Below, in pieces: positions 33,998 through 46,743 of a DNA stretch of 47,232 nucleotides. Each line of letters begins with the position of its first letter. Position 1 is the stretch's first letter. The notes below the pieces were generated by a model. The model did no database searches, was not told the origin of the DNA, and saw only the letters and a list, made by a program, of their open reading frames with translations. Origin of the DNA: Alphaproteobacteria bacterium (GTDB lineage Bacteria > Pseudomonadota > Alphaproteobacteria > CACIAM-22H2); assembly GCA_016793165.1 (NCBI GenBank), contig JAEULA010000003.1, forward strand, positions 1 to 47,232, read 5' to 3'. A program made the position numbers and the translations under genes.

Positions 33998-34099
33998 ATC
34001 GTTAACGAATCGCCGCTAGGCTTGCGGTTCCGGTCCGCCGTCGCGCGCGTCTTCCTGCGGTCGCGGACCCGGCGTTCGAGATCGAACCCCAGTCGACGG

Positions 34100-34522
34100 A
34101 TGCTCCTGCAACTCGTGTATCTCAGCACCGCCGCGCGTCTGATGAGCGACAGCGAGCTCGCCACCCTGCTCGACGTCTCACGCGAGCGCAATGCGGCCGC
34201 CGGCCTGACCGGCATGCTGCTCTATGCCGACGGCCAGTTCATGCAGGCGCTGGAAGGGCCGGCGGAGCCGCTGATCTCGACCTACGGGCGGATCCGTCGC
34301 GATCCGCGCCACCGGTCCCTGATCGAGATGCTGCGCCAGGGCGTCCCCGACCGGAGTTTCGCGGACTGGTCGATGGGCTTCCGGCGCGGCGCCCGGCGGG
34401 ATCTCGACGCCCTGCCCGGCTACTCGGACTTCCTCGACCGGCCCGATGGCTCGGCCGGCGCCGACGTCGCGCGCGCCTTCCTGCACTCCTTCAGGTCGAG
34501 CGCCCAGCGCTTCCGGGTCTGA
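34100..34522 (+). CDS. Single-domain BLUF blue-light photoreceptor
   Basis: 140 residues, almost entirely one BLUF domain binding FAD. The key residues fall at the same spacing as in AppA: Tyr7 (AppA 21), Asn31 (45), Gln49 (63), Trp90 (104) and Met92 (106). RERNAAAGLTGMLLYADGQF and FMQALEGP are family signatures, and RIRRDPRHRSL follows. Only about 40 residues lie beyond the domain, with no output domain, so it should signal by protein contact. No obvious partner (EAL, GGDEF or regulator) is next to it. The ATG at 34100 has a poor ribosome site, but upstream codons do not extend the fold. Confidence 0.92.
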   Translation: MLLQLVYLSTAARLMSDSELATLLDVSRERNAAAGLTGMLLYADGQFMQALEGPAEPLISTYGRIRRDPRHRSLIEMLRQGVPDRSFADWSMGFRRGARRDLDALPGYSDFLDRPDGSAGADVARAFLHSFRSSAQRFRV

Positions 34523-36532: not shown

Positions 36533-36654
36533 GGCGGAAGGCTCGTGATCGTGGCGTGAAGGACGGGTGCCGGTCCGGGCCGGATCGAAACCCGGACGCA
36601 CTTTCCCTCCCGGTGGGTATGGTTGCCACTTCGAATCTCATTCGGGCTCCACCG

Positions 36655-39318
36655 ATGTCCACCGCCCTCGCCGCCGACGGATCCTTCCTGCTCGACCTCT
36701 ACGCGCGTTTCCGGCGCGACCCGTTGTCCGTCCCGGCGGACTGGCGCGTCGAATTCGAGACCGGTGAGGCGGCGCCGGCATCCGCCGACCTGCTGTCGCG
36801 GCTGCGCGAGGCCTATCGGCTGCACGGCCACCGCGCCGCGGCGCTCGATCCGCTGGCCCTGGCGCCAAGGCAGGAGCCGCCGACGCTTGCGCGGTTGCGC
36901 GTGGCCGCGGCGGCGCAGCCGTCCCTTGCCGACGGCGCGGAGGCGCTGCAGCGCGCCTATGCCGGTACCGCGGCGATCGAGGCGATGCATCTCGCGGACG
37001 AGGCGCAGCGCGACTGGCTGCACGATGCCTGGGAGCGCGCCTTCGCCGCGGCGCCGGATCCCGCGCTGGCGGCGCGCGCGCTCGAGGCAGTCGCGCTTGC
37101 CGACGCCTTCGAATCATTCCTCGCGGTGAAGTTCCCGACCAAGAAGCGCTTCGGCATCGAGGGCGCGGAGTCGGCGATCGTGTTCCTGCGCGAGCTGCTG
37201 CGCGCGGCGTGCCTGGACGGCGTGGAGGAGACGGTGGTCGGCGGCATGCATCGCGGTCGGCTGTGCACGCTCGCGACCGTCTTCGGCAAGTCGCCGGGCG
37301 TGCTGCTCGCCGAGATCAAGGGCCGTGACCTCACGGCGGGCGGCCCGGACTACACGGGCGACGTGCCCTACCACCTCGGCCATGACGGCACGATCGAGCA
37401 CGGGGGGCGCACGATGCGGCTGCTGCTGTCGCCGCATCCCTCGCACCTGCTGACGGTGGCGCCGGTCGTGACCGGCCTCGCGCGCGCGCGTCGCGACGCC
37501 GGGATCGCGGCGATGGCGCTGCTGCTGCACACGGACGCCGCGTTCTCGGGGCAGGGCCTGACCGCCGAGCTGCTGCAGCTCGGAGGCCTCGACGGCTATC
37601 GCGTCGGGGGCACGGTCCACCTGGTCGTCAACAACCGGATCGGCTTCACGACGCTGGAGTCCGAGGGCCGCTCCGCCGTCCATTGCACCGACATCGGCAA
37701 GTCGGTCGGCGTGCCGATCCTGCACGTGAACGGCGACGACCCGGTCGCCGTCGCGCGCATCGCCCGGCTCGCCTTCGCGTGGCGGCAGGCGCATGGCCGC
37801 GACGTGATCGTCGACCTCGTCTGCTACCGCCGCAACGGCCACAACGAGCTGGACGAGCCCCGGTTCACGCAGCCGCGCGTCTGGGCCGCGGTCGATCGCC
37901 ATCCGTCGCTGCACGCGAGCTTCGGCTCGGTGATGGCGGCGGCCGATCCGGCGGCCTCGACCGCCGCGGGCGCCGCCGCCGCGACGTTCCGCGAGGCGCT
38001 GCAGCGCGGCTATGAAGGCATCGATTCGCTGCGGCCGAACACGGCGCCGATCCGTGCCCCGGGATGGGAGGCGATCGCGCGCGCCGATGCGGCCGCGGTG
38101 CTGGCGCCGGTCGAGACCGGCCTGCCCCTTGCGACGTTGCGCGAGATCGGACGACTCGGCGCGACGATTCCGCCGGGCGTGGCCTCGCATCCGAAGGTCG
38201 AGGCCTTCTATCGCGCGCGTCGCGAGACGATCGAGGCGGGCGAGGGGCTGAACTTCGCGACGGCCGAGGCGTTGGCCTTCGCCTCGCTGCTTGCCGCCGG
38301 CAACTCCGTCCGTCTCTCGGGGCAGGATTGCGTGCGCGGCACCTTCACCCAGCGCCATCTCGCGGTCCACGACATGGAGACCGGGGCGAGCGCACTGCCG
38401 CTCGCCGCGGTCGCGGCGTCGGGCGCGCGCTTCGAGCCGATCAACTCGCCGCTCGCCGAGTACGCGGTGCTCGGCTTCGAGTACGGGCACAGCCAGGGCG
38501 ATCCGCGCGCGCTGACGGTCTGGGAGGCGCAGTTCGGAGACTTCCTCAACGGCGCGCAGATCATGGTCGACCAGTTCATCGTCTCGGCCGAGGCGAAGTG
38601 GGAGACGCTCTCGGGGCTGGTCATGCTGCTGCCGCACGGCCTGGAAGGCCAGGGCCCGGACCATTCATCGGCGCGCATCGAGCGGCTGCTGCAGCTCTGC
38701 GCCGGCGGCAACATGATCGTCGCCAACCCTTCGACGCCGGCGAACCTCTTCCATCTGCTGCGACGGCAGGTCGTCGCGGCCTGGCGCAAGCCGCTCTTCG
38801 TGATCGCGCCGAAGTCGCTGCTTCGCCAGCGCGCCTGCGTGTCGTCGCTGGTCGAGTTCGGCCCCGGCACGGGATTCCGGGCGCTGATCGACGACGAGGA
38901 CGCACCGGAGTCGCCGCCGGCGGGTCGGTCGACTCGTGCCGCCGGAACGAAGCGGCGACGGCTGGTGATGTGCTCGGGCAAGATCGCCTACGAGCTGCTC
39001 CAGGCGCGCGCCGCGCGGCGCCGCGACCGCGATGTCGCGATCCTCCGCGTGGAGCAGCTCTACCCGCTGCCCATCGATGCCCTCGCTGCGGCGATCGCCG
39101 CGCGTCCGGATGCCGAATGCGTCTGGTGCCAGGAGGAGCCGGAGAACCAGGGAGCGGCCGCCTTCGTCCTGGAGGCGCTGCGCCGGCACCAGGCGACGCG
39201 CCTGCGCGCGATCGGCGTCGTGGCGCGGCCGCCTCTTCCCGTCGCCGCCGGCGGATCGATCGACCGCCACGAGCGCGAGCAGGCCGAGCTCGTCGCGCGC
39301 GCCTTGGGCGGCGGCTGA
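36655..39318 (+). CDS. 2-oxoglutarate dehydrogenase E1 homologue (orphan)
   Basis: 887 residues, slightly shorter than typical SucA (about 930-990). The N-terminal LLDLYARFRRDPLSVPADWRV matches the E2-docking helix. GGMHRGRLCTLATVFGKSPG and GDVPYHLGHDG are the SucA signature; AAFSGQGLTAELLQLGGLDG, VNNRIGFTTLE and NGDDPVAVARIARLAF form the ThDP/Mg site; FEYGHSQGDPRALTVWEAQFGDF, LPHGLEGQGPDHSSARIERLLQLC are also kept. Changes: HGD is HTD and the usual RGTFSHRH is RGTFTQRH. No sucB or lpd is nearby, so it may be a second E1 for another 2-oxoacid or use a distant E2. I use ATG 36655; an in-frame frame extends upstream. Confidence 0.87.
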   Translation: MSTALAADGSFLLDLYARFRRDPLSVPADWRVEFETGEAAPASADLLSRLREAYRLHGHRAAALDPLALAPRQEPPTLARLRVAAAAQPSLADGAEALQRAYAGTAAIEAMHLADEAQRDWLHDAWERAFAAAPDPALAARALEAVALADAFESFLAVKFPTKKRFGIEGAESAIVFLRELLRAACLDGVEETVVGGMHRGRLCTLATVFGKSPGVLLAEIKGRDLTAGGPDYTGDVPYHLGHDGTIEHGGRTMRLLLSPHPSHLLTVAPVVTGLARARRDAGIAAMALLLHTDAAFSGQGLTAELLQLGGLDGYRVGGTVHLVVNNRIGFTTLESEGRSAVHCTDIGKSVGVPILHVNGDDPVAVARIARLAFAWRQAHGRDVIVDLVCYRRNGHNELDEPRFTQPRVWAAVDRHPSLHASFGSVMAAADPAASTAAGAAAATFREALQRGYEGIDSLRPNTAPIRAPGWEAIARADAAAVLAPVETGLPLATLREIGRLGATIPPGVASHPKVEAFYRARRETIEAGEGLNFATAEALAFASLLAAGNSVRLSGQDCVRGTFTQRHLAVHDMETGASALPLAAVAASGARFEPINSPLAEYAVLGFEYGHSQGDPRALTVWEAQFGDFLNGAQIMVDQFIVSAEAKWETLSGLVMLLPHGLEGQGPDHSSARIERLLQLCAGGNMIVANPSTPANLFHLLRRQVVAAWRKPLFVIAPKSLLRQRACVSSLVEFGPGTGFRALIDDEDAPESPPAGRSTRAAGTKRRRLVMCSGKIAYELLQARAARRRDRDVAILRVEQLYPLPIDALAAAIAARPDAECVWCQEEPENQGAAAFVLEALRRHQATRLRAIGVVARPPLPVAAGGSIDRHEREQAELVARALGGG

Positions 39319-39334: not shown

Positions 39335-39604
39335 TCAGGCCGGCGGCTTTGCGTCGCGCCAGCGCTTGTACATCCGCCGGGCGCCGCGCGCGCAGAGCAG
39401 ACCGACCACGAAGATCAGCACCGAAGGGATGCCGAAGGCCAGCCAGTCGCTCGTGTTCGTCGCGAAGTCGCTCGAGACGATGATGCAGCAGCCGCCGAAG
39501 ATCAGCAGCACGGCGCTGACGAGGCACAGGAGGACGAGCAGGCAACCGGACGGGCGCTGCTGCGGCGGCGGCTCGATCGCCGGTGTGGCAGGCGGCTCGT
39601 TCAT
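39335..39604 (-). CDS. Small two-helix membrane protein
   Basis: 89 residues, no family recognised. A Pro-rich N-terminal tail (1-20) precedes membrane helices at about 21-43 (with Cys21, Cys27, Cys39, Cys40) and 54-72, then a basic tail (RMYKRWRDAKPPA) expected in the cytoplasm. It begins 16 bases after the radical SAM gene, so is the third gene of that operon and may be a membrane partner of the pathway. It ends 16 bases from the convergent SucA-like gene. Confidence 0.65.
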   Translation of the reverse strand: MNEPPATPAIEPPPQQRPSGCLLVLLCLVSAVLLIFGGCCIIVSSDFATNTSDWLAFGIPSVLIFVVGLLCARGARRMYKRWRDAKPPA

Positions 39605-39620
39605 CCCTCGCGCTCCCGTG

Positions 39621-41027
39621 TCATCCGGCGGCGGGCGCCGGCGTCCGCAGTCTGCGATGCGTCCGCGTCCGGTAGAAGAGATTGTAGGTGTCGAACGGGA
39701 TGATTCCGCCGTCCGGCGTGACGAAGTGGATGCAGCTCCGCTTCACCTGGCCGAGGTCGAAGTTGTAGCGGTCGAGGAACTGGACGATCACGACTCGAAA
39801 GACGTTGTCGTAGCCCAGGCCGGCGGGCAGCTCGAAGCTGGGCAGGCAGCACAGCAGGTCGCCGAGGATCTTCGAGGTCGTCGTGCCGGTGGTGGACAGC
39901 GACAGCGCGTCGAAGACGCGCCGTTTCAGCTCCGGATACTTCTCGAAGGCGATCGCGTTTGGCGCCGCATCGACGAAGACCTCGCGCGGCAGCAGGCTGG
40001 TGAGCGGCACGAGGCGCTCGGCGCTGCGCAGCGCGTAGCCGATGGCGATGTTTTCCGGATTGCAGGGCAGCGGCACGATGTCTGTGTCGGCGAAGCCCGA
40101 GCCCTGGGCGACGAGGCCGCGGCGGATGTCGCTCAGCACGACCCGGTGGCGGTTCGGATCGAAGCCTTCGTTGCGGCCGGCGTCCTGGACGGGCTGGAAC
40201 GTGACTCCGCGCACGCACTTGTACGTCAGCGCGAAGCGCACGATCTCGCCGAGCTCCGCGTCGTTGACGCCCTTCTTGACGACGACGACCAGGGTGGTCG
40301 AGACGCCCGCGGCCTCGAGGTTCTCCAGCGCCTGCAGCCGGATGCGCGCGAGGTCGGCGCCGCGGATGTCGACGAGGGCCTCGCGACGCAGCGAGTCGAA
40401 CTGCAGATAGACCTCGAAGCCCGGCTTCAGCTCGGCGAGCCGCTTCACGAAGTCGGGCTCCCGCGCGATGCGGATGCCGTTGGTGTTGAGCATCACGTGG
40501 CGGATCGGCCGGCGCTTGGCGGCGTGCAGGATCTCGAGGATCTGCGGATGCAGCGTCGGCTCGCCGCCCGAGATCTGCACGAGGTCGGGCTCGCCCTCGG
40601 CCTCGACCAGCGCATCGAGCATGCGCTCGACCTCCGCCAGGGAGCGCGTGCCGGCATGGGCGGGGCTCGAGCCCGCGAAGCAGACCGGGCAGGTCAGGTT
40701 GCAGTGCTCGTTGATCTCGACCAGGCCGAGGCAGGTGTGCTGCTCGTGGTCGGGGCAGATGCCGCAATCCCACGGGCAGCCGTGCTCGGTGCGGCCGAAG
40801 AACCGCTTCGGCACGTCGCCGGGCTTCACCCATTCGCGGGTCCGCTGCCAATAGGCGCGGTCGGTCGACACCAGGGCCTTCTGCACGCCGTGCTCTGAGC
40901 AGCGCTTCTGGAAATAGACGTCGTCCCCTTCGGCGAGGATCTTCGCCGGCACCAGCTCCAGGCAGTGCTCGCACAGCGACGTCGTCTCGCCGAGGAAGAG
41001 GTAGGGCCTAGGCTTTCGCTGGTCCAT
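39621..41027 (-). CDS. Radical SAM protein of the tetraether-synthase (Tes/COG1964) type
   Basis: 468 residues. The radical SAM cluster motif is C109-x3-C113-x2-C116 (CNLTCPVC), with the SAM-binding GGEP at 154-157. In front lie C84-x3-C88-x2-C91-x7-C99 (an auxiliary iron-sulfur set) and C19-x2-C22 plus C43 (zinc- or rubredoxin-like). Further Cys occur in the C-terminal third (PCNPEN, LLCCLPS, RSCIHF). This layout, and CGICPDHEQHTCLGLVEIN, matches MJ0619/Tes, which joins lipid tails in archaea and uses three Fe4S4 clusters and one mononuclear Fe. The family is clear; a lipid substrate is inferred. Its ATG lies inside the end of the Lgt-like gene (20-base overlap). Confidence 0.83.
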   Translation of the reverse strand: MDQRKPRPYLFLGETTSLCEHCLELVPAKILAEGDDVYFQKRCSEHGVQKALVSTDRAYWQRTREWVKPGDVPKRFFGRTEHGCPWDCGICPDHEQHTCLGLVEINEHCNLTCPVCFAGSSPAHAGTRSLAEVERMLDALVEAEGEPDLVQISGGEPTLHPQILEILHAAKRRPIRHVMLNTNGIRIAREPDFVKRLAELKPGFEVYLQFDSLRREALVDIRGADLARIRLQALENLEAAGVSTTLVVVVKKGVNDAELGEIVRFALTYKCVRGVTFQPVQDAGRNEGFDPNRHRVVLSDIRRGLVAQGSGFADTDIVPLPCNPENIAIGYALRSAERLVPLTSLLPREVFVDAAPNAIAFEKYPELKRRVFDALSLSTTGTTTSKILGDLLCCLPSFELPAGLGYDNVFRVVIVQFLDRYNFDLGQVKRSCIHFVTPDGGIIPFDTYNLFYRTRTHRRLRTPAPAAG

Positions 41028-41706
41028 GCGCGACTCCCCGATACATGACGACGGCGTAGGCGAGCAGCAGCACGGCGCCGAGCTGGAAGATCGTCAGCGT
41101 GCCGGCGACCGTGCCGTAGGGCTTGAGGAACTCCAGCGCGAAGCGATCGAGCGCGTAGAACCCCGCGAAGACGTAGAATCCGCGCGCGGCGGCCGCGGCC
41201 GGATCGCGGCGCAGCCAGGCGGCGAACCAGCCGGCGAAGCCGAGCATCAGCGCGGTTTCGTAGAGCTGCACGGGATGGCGCGGAATGCCGTCGCCGAGAT
41301 CGACGGCCCAGGGCAGCGAGCTGGGCGTTCCGTGCGTGAAGTCCTCGAGCCCGGCCATGAAGCAGCCGATGCGACCCACGCCGATTCCGACCGCGAGCGG
41401 CACGACGAGCCGCGCCCCGGTCGACGCGCGCACGCCCTTCACCCGCTTCCACATCTCGATGGCGACGACGCCTCCGACCATCGCGCCGAAGACGCTGCGG
41501 CCGATCCCCGGCTGGCCCGAAAGGACGAGATTGACGGTGCCGAACCAGTAGGCGCCGAGCGCGGCGCCCGCCAGCAGCGTCGCCGTGTAGTCGAGGCCGC
41601 GGCCCCGGCCCGGGGGCGGCAGCCATGTGGCGACGAGCCGGCCGGCCAGCCATCCGGCGGCGACGGCCAGCAGGTCGAAGAGCGAATGGATGACCGCCCA
41701 ATGCAC
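41008..41706 (-). CDS. Lgt-like (prolipoprotein diacylglyceryl transferase family) membrane protein
   Basis: 232 residues with about six or seven membrane helices. The start is a GTG at 41706 with a perfect AAGGAGG nine bases before it. GRIGCFMAGLED (111-122) and RHPVQLYE (143-150) are the Lgt signature and C-terminal motif. However, the HGGLLG loop carrying E. coli His103 reads GRSVFGAMVGG (69-79) with no His, and the Asn146 position is Cys115. Both residues are important for lipoprotein acylation, so this is likely not the housekeeping Lgt. It heads an operon with the Tes-like radical SAM gene, suggesting a role in lipid or lipid-linked modification. Confidence 0.82.
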   Translation of the reverse strand: MHWAVIHSLFDLLAVAAGWLAGRLVATWLPPPGRGRGLDYTATLLAGAALGAYWFGTVNLVLSGQPGIGRSVFGAMVGGVVAIEMWKRVKGVRASTGARLVVPLAVGIGVGRIGCFMAGLEDFTHGTPSSLPWAVDLGDGIPRHPVQLYETALMLGFAGWFAAWLRRDPAAAAARGFYVFAGFYALDRFALEFLKPYGTVAGTLTIFQLGAVLLLAYAVVMYRGVAHGPAKA

Positions 41707-41930: not shown

Positions 41931-42995
41931 TCAATGCGGGAACGGCCAGAGGCGAAGCTTCTCCTTGCCGATCTGCCACAGGCGGGCGAGCCCGTGCGGC
42001 TCGGCGATCAGGAAGAAGACGATCAGCGCGCCGAAAATGATGAACTCGAGATGGCTGACGTCGGCGGTGGAGATCGGCAGGTTGAGCCAGTGCGGCATCT
42101 GGTTGAGCAGGATCGGCAGCAGCGTGATGAAGGCGGCGCCGAGGAAGGAGCCGAGGATCGATCCGAGCCCCCCGATGATCACCATGAACAGCAGGTTGAA
42201 GCTCCGATTGATGTCGAAGGCGAGCGGCTCCCAGGCGCCGAGATGGACGAATGCCCAGAGCGCGCCGGCGACGCCGGCGTAGAACGAGCTGACCGCGAAG
42301 GCCGAGAGCTTCGCCTCGAGCGGGCGGATGCCGATGATCTCGGCCGCGATGTCCATGTCGCGCGTCGCCATCCAGGCGCGCCCGATCCGGCCGCGAACGA
42401 TGTTCTTGGCGACCGCCGCCATCAGCACGACGATCGCGAGCACGAGCAGATAGCGCGCGGCGGGTGCGCGGAAATCGACGCCGAGGATGATCAGCGCCGG
42501 CGCCGAGACCGAGCCGGACGGCGTGTAGTTGGTGAACCACTGAACGCGGATGAAGAGCCAGTCGAGGAAGAACTGCGCGGCCAGCGTGGCGACGGCGAGA
42601 TAGAAGCCCTTGATGCGCAGGCTCGGCACGCCGAAGACGATGCCGACCAGCGCCGCGATCCCGCCGGACAGCGCGAAGACGACCAGCAGGTTGAGCTCGG
42701 GGATGCGGACCGCGAGGTTGTAGGCGGCGTAGGCCCCGACCGCCATGAAGCCGGCGGTGCCGAGCGACACCTGGCCGCAATAGCCGACCAGCAGGTTGAG
42801 GCCGAGCGCGGCGAGGCTGAGGACCAGGAACGGGATGAGGATCGCGCGCAGCAGGTATTCGCTCGCGACCATCGGCACGACGAGGAAGGCGACGGCGAGG
42901 ATGATCGCGATGGCGATGCGGTCCTGCGCGATCGGGAACACCGCCTGGTCGGCGGCGTAGCTGGTCTTGAACTGTCCGGCTTCGCGATAGAACAC
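41931..42995 (-). CDS. livM: Branched-chain amino-acid-type ABC permease (LivM family)
   Basis: 354 residues with about nine or ten membrane helices. GLNLLVGYCGQVSLGTAGFMAVGAY is the LivM signature and the cytoplasmic loop reads GRAWMATRDMDIAAEIIGI RPLEAKLSAFA. A GTG at 42995 is the start, four bases after the LivH stop. It is the last Liv gene here: no LivF ATPase or LivK binding protein follows; the 224 bases downstream to the Lgt-like gene hold no clear gene. It should pair with LivH and LivG. Liv-type systems next to an acyl-CoA ligase often carry aromatic or fatty acids rather than leucine. Confidence 0.92.
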   Translation of the reverse strand: MFYREAGQFKTSYAADQAVFPIAQDRIAIAIILAVAFLVVPMVASEYLLRAILIPFLVLSLAALGLNLLVGYCGQVSLGTAGFMAVGAYAAYNLAVRIPELNLLVVFALSGGIAALVGIVFGVPSLRIKGFYLAVATLAAQFFLDWLFIRVQWFTNYTPSGSVSAPALIILGVDFRAPAARYLLVLAIVVLMAAVAKNIVRGRIGRAWMATRDMDIAAEIIGIRPLEAKLSAFAVSSFYAGVAGALWAFVHLGAWEPLAFDINRSFNLLFMVIIGGLGSILGSFLGAAFITLLPILLNQMPHWLNLPISTADVSHLEFIIFGALIVFFLIAEPHGLARLWQIGKEKLRLWPFPH

Positions 42996-42999
42996 GGCG

Positions 43000-43899
43000 T
43001 CACACCCGCTCGATGATCCGCTCGCCGAACAGCCCCTGCGGACGGAAGAGCAGGAAGCCGAGGGCGAGCATGTAGGCGAACCAGTTCTCGATCCCGCCGC
43101 CCACGAGCGGACCGATGAACACCTCCGCGAGCTTCTCGCCCGCGCCGATGATCAGGCCGCCGACGATGGCCCCTGGCACCGAGGTGAAGCCGCCGAGGAT
43201 GAGCACGGGCAGCGCCTTGAGCGCGACCAGCTGCAGCGAGAACTGCACGCCGAGCTTGGCACCCCACATCATGCCGGCGACGAGGGCGACGATGCCCGAG
43301 ACGGCCCAGACGATGATCCAGATGCGGTTGAGCGGGATGCCGATCGACTGCGCCGCCTGGTGGTCGTCGGCGACGGCACGCAGCGCGCGGCCCGTCGGCG
43401 TCCGCTGGAAGAACAGCGCCAGCGCGACCACCAGCGCGCCGGCGACGACCGCCGCGACCACGTCGATCGGCGGCAGCAGCACCCCGCCCTCGAAGACCCC
43501 CTCGAGGATGAACCACGGGTCCTGCGGCAGGCCGAGATCGATCTTGTAGATGTCGGAGCCCCAGACGAGCTGGCCGAAGCCGTCCATGAAGAAGGTCACG
43601 CCGAGCGTGGCCATGAACAGAATGATGCCTTCCTGGTTCACCAGCGGGCGAAGCACCAGCCGCTCCACGGCGAAGGCGACCGCGACCATGATCGCGGCGG
43701 CGATGATGAAGGCGAGCCACAGCGGCATCACCTCGCCCATGCGCGCGAGGCCGAGGGCGGCGAAGAGCACGAAGGCGCCCTGCGCGAAGTTGAAGACGCC
43801 CGAGGCCTTGAAGATCAGGACGAAGCCGAGCGCGACGAGCGAGTAGAGGACGCCGGCGAGCAGCCCGCCGATGAGGACCTCGACGACCTGGGCGATCAT
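43000..43899 (-). CDS. livH: Branched-chain amino-acid-type ABC permease (LivH family)
   Basis: 299 residues with about eight membrane helices. VLYSLVALGFVLIFKASGVFNFAQGAFVLFAA is the classic LivH opening and GRALRAVADDHQAAQSIGIPLNRI the ATPase-contact loop. AGMMWGAKLGVQFSLQLVALKALPVLILGG continues the family pattern. It lies 76 bases after LivG and 4 before LivM, so is coupled to LivM. Confidence 0.93.
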   Translation of the reverse strand: MIAQVVEVLIGGLLAGVLYSLVALGFVLIFKASGVFNFAQGAFVLFAALGLARMGEVMPLWLAFIIAAAIMVAVAFAVERLVLRPLVNQEGIILFMATLGVTFFMDGFGQLVWGSDIYKIDLGLPQDPWFILEGVFEGGVLLPPIDVVAAVVAGALVVALALFFQRTPTGRALRAVADDHQAAQSIGIPLNRIWIIVWAVSGIVALVAGMMWGAKLGVQFSLQLVALKALPVLILGGFTSVPGAIVGGLIIGAGEKLAEVFIGPLVGGGIENWFAYMLALGFLLFRPQGLFGERIIERV

Positions 43900-43975
43900 G
43901 CGCTCCCCCTCCCGGTGTCGCGCCGGCTTGCTTCTCGCCCGATCGAACGTCCCGCGGCCCGCATCGCCTCCGCCC

Positions 43976-44773
43976 TCAATGCTGCACGCCGAGATAGGCG
44001 TCGATGACGCGCTGGTCGCTGCGTACCTCGTCGGGCGTCCCGTCCGCGATCTTGCGCCCGTATTCCAGCACCACGACGCGGTCCGAGATGTCCATCACCA
44101 CGCCCATGTCGTGCTCGATCAGCGCGATCGTCGTGCCGAACTCGTCGTTCACGTCGAGGATGAAGCGGCACATGTCCTCCTTCTCCTCGACGTTCATGCC
44201 GGCCATCGGCTCGTCGAGCAGCAGCAGCGTCGGCTCGGCGGCCAGCGCGCGGCCGAGCTCGACGCGCTTCTGCAGGCCGTAGGGCAGTCGGCCGACGGGC
44301 ACCTTCCGGATCGACTGGATCTCCAGGAAGTCGATGATCCGCTCGACGAACTCGCGGTGACGGATCTCCTCGTCGCGCGCCGGGCCGAGCCAGACGCATT
44401 GCGAGAGGAACCCCGCGCGCATCTTGAGCAGCCGCCCGGTCATGATGTTGTCGAGGGTCGACATGCCCTTGAACAGCGCGATGTTCTGGAACGTCCGCGC
44501 GATGCCCTGCTTGGCGGCCAGATGCGGGCGCATCTGATGGCGCTCGACGCCCTGGTAGGTGATGCGACCCTGTTGCGGATGATAGAAGCCGTTGATGCAG
44601 TTCAGCATCGACGACTTGCCCGCGCCGTTCGGGCCGATGATCGCGCGGATCTCGCCCTTGCGGATGTCGAAGGAGACGTCGGTCAGCGCCTTCACGCCGC
44701 CGAAGGCGAGCGAGATGTTCTCGACCTGCAGCAGCGCATCGCCGATGACGCGGGGCTTGGTCGCCGCGGTCAT
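43976..44773 (-). CDS. livG: Branched-chain amino-acid-type ABC ATPase (LivG family)
   Basis: 265 residues. Walker A GPNGAGKSS, Q-loop ARTFQNIALFKGMSTLDNIM, signature region LPYGLQKRVELGRAL, Walker B LLLLDEPMAGMNVEE, and EHDMGVVMDISDRVVVL are all LivG type. A C-terminal DEVRSDQRVIDAYLG is standard. It starts with ATG at 44773, overlapping the stop of the ligase gene (ATGA), so ligase and importer are translated together. Confidence 0.93.
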   Translation of the reverse strand: MTAATKPRVIGDALLQVENISLAFGGVKALTDVSFDIRKGEIRAIIGPNGAGKSSMLNCINGFYHPQQGRITYQGVERHQMRPHLAAKQGIARTFQNIALFKGMSTLDNIMTGRLLKMRAGFLSQCVWLGPARDEEIRHREFVERIIDFLEIQSIRKVPVGRLPYGLQKRVELGRALAAEPTLLLLDEPMAGMNVEEKEDMCRFILDVNDEFGTTIALIEHDMGVVMDISDRVVVLEYGRKIADGTPDEVRSDQRVIDAYLGVQH

Positions 44774-46743
44774 TCCGCGGCCTCGCGCTGCGGACGGGCG
44801 GCGGGCATGTCGCGGATCGCGAGGTCGGCCTCGAGCCGTCCCTTGCGGCCGTCCTCGAAGATCACGTCGGTGGCGATGTGCGCGCGCGGCGCGTCGCCGT
44901 ACAGGCCCTCGACCAGGGACTGGTAGCGCTCGGCGATGAAGCTGCGCCGGACCTTGCGCGTGCGCGTGAGCTCGCCGTCGTCGGCGTCGAGCTCCTTGTG
45001 CAGGATGAGGAAGCGGCGCACCTGCGAGCCGGCCAGCGCAGGGTCGGCGGCGAGATCGCGGTTCACCTGCGCGACGCAGTCGGCGACCAGATCGTAGACC
45101 TCCGGCTTCGCGGCGAGCTCCTGGTACGAGGCGTAGGCGATGCCGCGCTTCTCGGCCCAGTTGCCGGTGGCCTCGAGATCGATGTTGATGAAGGCGGTCG
45201 CCATGTCGCGCCCGGCGCCGAAGGCCACGGCCTCCTTGATGAAGGCGAAGAACTTCAGCTTGTTCTCGATGTATTTGGGCGCGAACAGCGTTCCGTCGCG
45301 CAGACGGCCGACGTCCTTGGCGCGGTCGATGATCTTGAGGTGGCCGTCGGCGTCGAAGACGCCGGCATCGCCGGTGCGCAGCCAGCCGTCGGAAGTCTTG
45401 GCCTCGGCCGTCGCGGCCTCGTTCTTGTAGTAGAGCTTGAACACGCCCGGGCTCTTCACCAGCACCTCGCCGTTGTCCGCGAGCCGGATCGCGACGTCGG
45501 GCGCGGCCGGACCGACCGTGTCGACCTTGATCTGCCCGTCGGGCTGCAGGCAGATGAACACGCTCGCCTCGGTCATGCCGTAGAGCTGCTTCAGGTTCAG
45601 GCCGAGCGAGCGGTAGAACGCGAACAGGTCGGGGCCGATCGCCTCGCCGGCGGTGTAGCCGACGCGCATGCGGCTGAGCCCGAGCACGTTCTTGAGCGGT
45701 CCGTAGACCAGCAGCTCTCCGAGGCGGTAGAGCAGCCGGTCCGCCGCGCCGACGGGTTTGCCGTCGAGGATGTCGATGCCGACGCGCCGCGCGTGGTCCA
45801 TGAAGTAGCGGAACATGCGGCGCTTGAGAGCGCCTGCGTCCTCCATCCGGATCGTCACCTGGGTGAGCAGGTTCTCGAAGATGCGCGGCGGCGCGAAGAA
45901 GAAGGTCGGGCCGATCTCGCGCAGGTCGGTCAGGACCGTCGCGCCCGATTCCGGACAGGCGACGCAGAAGCCGGCAACCAGGGCCTCGCCGTAGGAGAAG
46001 ATGTGGTCGCCGACCCAGGCCATCGGAAGATAAGCGAGGATCTCGTCCCGATCGGTGAGCCGGTCGAACGCCACGGCGTTTGCCGCGGTGACCATCACGT
46101 TGGCGTAGGTGAGCATGACGCCCTTGGGCTTGCCGGTCGTGCCCGAGGTGTAGAGCATCACGCCGATGTCGTCGGCCTTGCCCTTGGCGATCTCGCGCCG
46201 CACGCGCTCCGGGTCCTTCGCCAGCGCCTCGCGGCCCATGGCCATCAGGCTCTCGAGCGAGGTCAGGCGCGCGTGGTCGTAGTCGCGCAGGCCGCGCGGA
46301 TCGTCGTAGATGATTCGCCCGAGCCGCGCGGTGCGGGCGCCTGCGGCGAGCAGCTTGTCGACCTGCTCCTGGTCCTCGGCGAAGGCGATTCCCGCCTCGG
46401 CATGGTCGATGACGTACGCCATCTCCTCGGCGACGGCGTCCTGATAGAGCGGAACGGGGATGGCGCCGATGCATTGCGCGGCACACAGGGCGCCGTAGAG
46501 CAGCGGGCGATTGTCGCCGGTGACCGTGATCGTCGTGCCGCGCGCCGCCCCGAGCTCGAGCAGGCCCGCGGCGATCGCGTGCACGTCGTCGCGCCAGCGC
46601 CGCCAGGTCCAGGTCTGCCAGATGCCGAGATGTTTTTCGCGGAAGGCGGGCCGATCGCCGCGTTGCTTGATCGCGTGCTCGAGCAGCTTGGGAAACGTGT
46701 CGCGGTCGGCGGCGAAGCCGGGAGGATCCGCGCGCGCCGTCAT
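44770..46743 (-). CDS. Long-chain acyl-CoA synthetase/ligase (AMP-binding)
   Basis: 657 residues. It activates a carboxylic acid with ATP and CoA. YTSGTTGKPKGVMLTYANV is the AMP-binding P-loop, YGMTEAS the adenine motif, and GWLRTGDAGVFDADGHLKIIDRAKD the hinge. A 40-residue insertion after the hinge region and NWAEKRGIAYASYQELAAKPEV resemble the FadD15/long-chain ligase branch. It leads the Liv cluster and overlaps livG by four bases, which suggests the importer brings in an acid that this enzyme activates. The ATG 46743 has a weak ribosome site; a promoter lies about 110 bases upstream. Confidence 0.9.
   Translation of the reverse strand: MTARADPPGFAADRDTFPKLLEHAIKQRGDRPAFREKHLGIWQTWTWRRWRDDVHAIAAGLLELGAARGTTITVTGDNRPLLYGALCAAQCIGAIPVPLYQDAVAEEMAYVIDHAEAGIAFAEDQEQVDKLLAAGARTARLGRIIYDDPRGLRDYDHARLTSLESLMAMGREALAKDPERVRREIAKGKADDIGVMLYTSGTTGKPKGVMLTYANVMVTAANAVAFDRLTDRDEILAYLPMAWVGDHIFSYGEALVAGFCVACPESGATVLTDLREIGPTFFFAPPRIFENLLTQVTIRMEDAGALKRRMFRYFMDHARRVGIDILDGKPVGAADRLLYRLGELLVYGPLKNVLGLSRMRVGYTAGEAIGPDLFAFYRSLGLNLKQLYGMTEASVFICLQPDGQIKVDTVGPAAPDVAIRLADNGEVLVKSPGVFKLYYKNEAATAEAKTSDGWLRTGDAGVFDADGHLKIIDRAKDVGRLRDGTLFAPKYIENKLKFFAFIKEAVAFGAGRDMATAFINIDLEATGNWAEKRGIAYASYQELAAKPEVYDLVADCVAQVNRDLAADPALAGSQVRRFLILHKELDADDGELTRTRKVRRSFIAERYQSLVEGLYGDAPRAHIATDVIFEDGRKGRLEADLAIRDMPAARPQREAAE

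Follow-up and report, generated by a model that had tools for sequence, protein, structure and literature searches.

Amongst the closest described systems are two lipid enzymes. Tetraether synthase (Tes or GDGT-MAS; MJ0619, structures 7tol and 7tom), an archaeal radical SAM protein, joins inert sp3 carbons, a chemistry described for free membrane lipids, and Lgt (structure 5azb) is the membrane protein that normally moves a diacylglyceryl group. Tes homologs are also found in bacteria: Zeng et al. count 456 of these and treat them as candidates for making free membrane-spanning lipids (PMC8941075), and Lloyd et al. report some in bacteria for which synthesis of biphytanyl chains is not known (PMC9433317). 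A bacterial membrane-spanning lipid synthase (Mss) of Tes-like architecture has been studied together with Ger in bacteria that make iso-diabolic acid (PMC13274423), and is set beside the present locus by description only. Here we describe three genes at positions 39335–41706 of a 47,232-nt stretch of DNA (the window; contig JAEULA010000003.1 of assembly GCA_016793165.1, from an Alphaproteobacteria bacterium), which encode an Lgt-like membrane protein, a Tes-like radical SAM protein and a small membrane protein. Genes for these three proteins form a real, widespread and conserved cassette in distantly related bacteria. The trio has, in our estimation, about an even chance of being a dedicated protein-lipidation pathway, with the small proteins as substrate and the Cys of their G-x-C motif receiving a glycerolipid. 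In the literature searched, with most subscription journals outside its reach, no published description of the trio was found, as a first-pass annotation made from the sequence alone had supposed in naming no bacterial pathway with this exact composition.

Organization and conservation of the cassette

The three genes lie on the minus strand as one unit, in the order Lgt-like (41008–41706; 232 residues, GTG start, seven helices), radical SAM (39621–41027; 468 residues) and small two-helix membrane protein (39335–39604; 89 residues), the last being the proposed substrate. The first two overlap by 20 bases (41008–41027), and 16 bases (39605–39620) separate the radical SAM gene from the small gene, exactly as first annotated. 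The radical SAM gene is single copy in its own genome, a second, weak match spanning residues 107–199 only, and the genome also has a separate, ordinary lgt.

A scan of a species-genome collection returned at least 562 relatives of the radical SAM protein, of which the best 80 were taken as loci; with nine from further genomes (eight amongst 298 genomes of the phylum and one amongst 40 relatives, in each case besides the own genome) and that of the window, 90 loci were available. With a family profile, an Lgt-like gene was located on the strand of the radical SAM gene in 79 of the best 80, the sole exception (L063) being a contig on which the radical SAM gene stands at the very start, and within 0.8 kb in all nine further loci. 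The adjacency that the first-pass annotation had proposed to look for is therefore conserved in 88 of the 89 loci other than that of the window. Spacing amongst the best 80 runs from overlap to somewhat more than 0.5 kb, and three loci, with the labels Planctomycetota, Planctomycetaceae or Kuenenia, differ in having the Lgt-like gene downstream.

Across 299 genomes of the phylum, the nine with radical SAM matches, the own genome included, are also the only nine with strong Lgt-like matches (E ≤ 1e-34). The Lgt-like profile gave four further weak matches (1e-15 to 1e-18); three of these regions were inspected, two being ordinary lgt genes beside thyA, with SFHGG and GRIGNFING motifs, and the third an ordinary Lgt N-terminus. 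Pairwise identities of the radical SAM and Lgt-like proteins are correlated (r 0.83; 595 pairs from 35 loci). The gene surroundings vary, such that outside the Bradyrhizobium group the clustering of neighbours finds a third ordinary gene common to at most seven loci, as called by a codon-position gene picker that missed or misplaced some genes; plain clustering of open reading frames (ORFs) was unusable, being swamped by spurious GC-rich frames. A chance neighbourhood is rejected by the adjacency in 88 of 89 other loci, by the shared nine of 299 genomes and by the small-protein motif scan set against its controls (see below).

With regard to distribution, the spread is patchy, the radical SAM gene being present in none of three same-genus and none of 19 same-family genomes. 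Carriers, by record titles, include genera with cultured members, for example Bradyrhizobium and Caulobacter, and a plasmid of Persicobacter (Bacteroidota) holds a radical SAM gene, 49.6 % identical, that adjoins an Lgt-like gene (E 4.7e-42). A mobile or phage origin was considered and set aside, as phage records gave no matches at E 1e-30 and plasmid records only two at E 1e-60. A more distant relative, 39 % identical, on a Mycolicibacterium vanbaalenii plasmid (L116, 2309–6339) adjoins a methyltransferase gene, and no Lgt-like gene was found within its 9.4-kb stretch, which suggests that this locus stands at the edge of the cassette family. Divergent genes for CcdA and a disulfide oxidoreductase accompany it, a different gene set.

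The Tes-like radical SAM protein

The radical SAM protein exceeds the cut-offs of PF04055 (89.3 bits) and of PF23545, an N-terminal zinc ribbon (64 bits). Its nearest full-length NCBIfam match is TrsS, a radical SAM (seleno)protein (NF045646; residues 14–451, 308.6 bits), yet this lies under the cut-off of 490, and the Tes model NF045702 gives 278.9 bits against a cut-off of 450; the protein passes as neither named family. In fold comparison it shares the fold of Tes, the predicted model being weak, with predicted local distance difference test (pLDDT) values <50, at residues 68–76, 78–96, 111–123, 353–368, 375–386 and 394–405, in the lipid-pocket region.

All three Cys sets that had been read from the sequence are found, and their spacing follows that of Tes. 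The rubredoxin/zinc-ribbon set C19-X2-C22-X20-C43-X2-H46 (40890–40973, minus strand, as are all features of the trio given below) corresponds to C9X2C12X20C33X2H36, and the N-terminal auxiliary cluster set C84-X3-C88-X2-C91, with H94, H97 and C99 (40731–40778), to C73, C77 and C80. The radical SAM motif C109-X3-C113-X2-C116 (40680–40703) is retained in 90/90 sequences. The Tes-like layout that had been proposed thus stands for the fold and the N-terminal motif spacing, but not for the C-terminal part, where the alignment indicates that the cluster site is altered relative to Tes. Here the position of Tes Met439 is V415 (over 90 loci V 68, S 17, M 2, L 2 and I 1), that of Tyr459 is F435 (Phe in 90/90), that of Cys455 is Ser (90/90) and that of Cys470 is Asp or Glu (90/90). 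Tes variants M439A and Y459F are reported to be active (PMC9433317). The cassette family has further invariant Cys, namely Cys322 (40062–40064; 90/90) and Cys393-Cys394 (39846–39851; each 90/90), Tes having no Cys at the places aligned with the latter pair; Cys432 (39732–39734; 90/90) aligns with Tes Cys456. Partnership with Lgt-like and small membrane proteins further distinguishes the cassette enzyme from Tes. In one contig (L030, 1033–2496), the radical SAM frame is broken into two ORFs.

The Lgt-like protein

Membership of the Lgt family, also proposed at first pass, is borne out by PF01790, which matches at 68.7 bits (cut-off 24.9), and the fold matches that of Lgt in fold comparison, so that both enzymes of the cassette have the folds of lipid enzymes; at first pass both families had been taken to work on lipids. 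The NCBIfam equivalog models for Lgt remain below cut-off (45.1 vs 334 and 25.3 vs 118.9 bits), and the PF01790 alignment begins only at profile position 83, hence the N-terminal part is unlike Lgt. A search of PDB sequences with the single Lgt-like protein gave chance matches only.

The residues of the Lgt donor-lipid pocket are kept: Arg143, Tyr235, Arg239 and Glu243 correspond to R112 (88 of 89 loci, with one gap), Y184 (89/89), R188 (89/89) and E192 (88/89, with one D), respectively. In a set of 13 Lgt-like proteins, position 184 is F in two, P0130 and P0132. Three other residues of Lgt are replaced. His103 of the HGGL motif, which is essential in Lgt (PMC4728403), is absent, with F73 aligned in its place; over the 89 loci this position is E in 39, V in 23, A in 17, L in 6, I in 2, F in 1 and a gap in 1, and never H. 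The essential Arg246 is replaced by K195 (89/89), and where Lgt has the signature GR-x-G-N-F-x-N-G-E the window protein reads GRIGCFMAGLED. Within the stretch R112-I-G-C115 (41362–41373), Arg143 of Lgt is kept and Asn146 becomes Cys, C115 being found in 88 of 89 sequences, with one gap, and in 13/13 of the set of 13 proteins.

Small membrane proteins

Genes for small membrane proteins, one or more per locus, are present in all 90 loci; in 86 a relaxed scan recognized them and in four they were seen by eye. A strict scan for ORFs of 45–150 residues in which G-x-C closes a hydrophobic 18-mer found a match in the downstream stretches of 76/90 loci; five control sets of equal length (one from the antisense strand of that stretch, two from downstream, one from upstream and one from upstream antisense) returned 0/77, 0/71, 0/68, 0/71 and 0/71. 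The relaxed scan yielded 131 small genes, with one copy in 48 loci, two in 33, three in three and four in two. As to the loci resolved by eye, L072 has three small genes, divergent and upstream, in L031 the gene is truncated by the contig end, and in L092 (L112 in wider view) it lies directly upstream of the Lgt-like gene. In L005, the small-protein frame downstream of 5417 has no stop and continues into an ORF judged by eye to be rhomboid-like; this may be a fusion or a sequencing artefact.

Since the Cys formed part of both scan criteria, a separate test was run without it, on 72 loci with an ORF of 40–200 residues whose start lies in an overlap of 4 bases or 1 base. G-x-C was present in 66 of these ORFs against 17.9 expected after residue shuffling; 70 were hydrophobic, and 68 had a Cys closing a hydrophobic 17-mer. 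Amongst the matches listed from the protein database (the best 120 of 130), 120/120 relatives carry G-x-C. Conservation in the 131 small proteins comprises this Cys and the Gly at −2 (125/131), within a motif that closes the first transmembrane helix, is mostly [LIVFM]-[PSACTGF]-G-x-C (108/131) and resembles a lipobox with one extra residue. The strict lipobox, [LVI][ASTGVI][GAS]C, fits only 1/131, and a looser PROSITE-like pattern fits 37/131. In the window protein, alignment assigns the family Cys to C40 and the near-invariant Gly to G38 (G38-C39-C40, where transmembrane helix 1 ends; 39485–39493), and Cys39 also fits the motif, as G37-G38-C39.

The small proteins mostly have two predicted helices, with about four in some (L022, L062 and L084), and their mean charge is +1.4 before helix 1, −1.2 in the loop and +2.2 at the C-terminus. 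Fourteen relatives (P0241–P0254) are approximately 160 residues long; the nine inspected consist of two fused small-protein units, eight having G-x-C in both halves and the ninth AVGC in one. In L007, the radical SAM gene is followed first by a small-protein-like copy that has Arg at the place of the motif Cys, and then by an intact copy.

Over 15 loci, the radical SAM proteins are on average 62.6 % identical, the Lgt-like proteins 46.6 % and the small-protein cores 21.5 %. Purifying selection on the small genes is indicated by a median ratio of non-synonymous to synonymous substitution rates (dN/dS) of 0.297, from 213 pairs drawn from Bradyrhizobium and its close relatives (22 loci). The enzymes are single copy in the carrier genomes searched; the small genes multiply and vary in position. 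When a 17-member profile was run on 20 whole genomes, every match at E ≤ 1e-5 fell at a radical SAM locus, in seven carriers, three of which had contributed rows to the profile. Three of ten carriers (G103, G010 and G170) were missed, one marginal match elsewhere arose in each of carrier G170 and non-carrier G004 (0.003 and 0.004), and the other nine non-carrier genomes gave no match. No Pfam or NCBIfam model rises above cut-off for the window protein; holin-like Pfam matches in 4/17 members (best E 5.3e-5, the window protein being below cut-off) look like generic helix similarity and were discounted.

A candidate lipidation pathway and its alternatives

The first-pass annotation cast the small protein as a membrane anchor, a role that now fits less well than that of substrate: because the small proteins are often multi-copy, evolve fast and keep mainly the Cys of G-x-C, it is more likely that they are substrates than mere anchors. 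We infer that the Lgt-like protein lipidates this Cys and that the lipid tails are the target of the Tes-like enzyme. From the charge pattern, both termini are predicted to lie inside, which would place the Cys where helix 1 reaches the periplasm, on the same side of the membrane as the activity of Lgt. The Lgt-like protein would use the kept Arg/Tyr/Arg/Glu residues of its pocket to bind a phospholipid and would transfer a glyceryl-lipid to the small-protein Cys, using an acceptor site unlike that of Lgt. Before or after this transfer, the Tes-like enzyme would act on the lipid tails by radical chemistry, the end product probably being a bond other than, or added to, the tail-to-tail weld of Tes. 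Weighing against the pathway, the radical SAM enzyme and the small-protein Cys are predicted to lie on opposite sides of the membrane, a difficulty that would be solved if the lipid were processed before transfer. A more specific version, which we put forward tentatively and think unlikely as it stands, is that an Lgt paralog attaches lipid to a Cys at a transmembrane end and a Tes-type enzyme rebuilds the tail carbons, giving macrocyclic or membrane-spanning lipid-anchored proteins, a kind of protein modification not known before; such rebuilding at inert tail carbons could be a tail–tail weld or a carbon–sulfur bond to the Cys.

The two enzymes might instead modify a free glycerolipid as a membrane-lipid modification complex, with the small proteins as anchoring or regulatory subunits. 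This would agree with the lipid-enzyme folds of both and with the proposal of Zeng et al. that bacterial Tes homologs make membrane-spanning lipids (PMC8941075), and the 4-base overlap (ATGA) of the first small gene with the radical SAM stop codon, seen in 61/86 loci, suits a subunit. For a structural subunit, however, a copy number of one to four would be unusual, as would the low sequence identity and the conservation of just one Cys motif, and the Met439, Tyr459, Cys455 and Cys470 of Tes are not kept; we consider this reading doubtful. It is improbable, in our view, that the peptide is matured first, the radical SAM protein modifying the small protein at or near the Cys in the manner of a maturase of ribosomally synthesized and post-translationally modified peptides (RiPPs), and the Lgt-like protein binding the helix or exporting the product. 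Small variable ORFs, often several (1–4 per locus), do sit beside a radical SAM gene, as expected of RiPP precursors; inspection by eye revealed no leader/core layout in the small proteins. Lastly, the invariant Cys115 of the Lgt-like partner and the conserved Cys of the small protein could form a disulfide or metal relay unrelated to lipid transfer, but such a redox or metal system leaves the kept phospholipid pocket of Lgt and the Tes fold unexplained, and we regard it as very improbable.

Neighbouring genes

Beyond the cassette, all names of neighbours in the window were given by eye. On the 5′ side of the trio (41931–46743) are genes for Liv-type branched-chain ABC permeases and an acyl-CoA ligase. 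A tie of the trio to these neighbours was dropped, as a LivM relative (E 1e-20) occurs, amongst the loci compared, only in L112 (10493–10978; 66 % identical). A convergent plus-strand gene resembling the E1 component of 2-oxoglutarate dehydrogenase (36556–39318) leaves 16 bases between its end and that of the trio, and a likely BLUF blue-light sensor gene lies at 34022–34522. In other genomes, TerC-like membrane protein genes, also named by eye, occur near the cassette in a sub-group of loci (L022, L047, L063, L064, L077 and L081).

Implications

The role of bacterial Tes homologs is an acknowledged question, and for one large bacterial branch the cassette provides a partner enzyme and a candidate substrate. 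As it is present in genera with cultured members, the question can be tested directly. Should the lipidation pathway prove true, it would constitute an undescribed protein–lipid modification.
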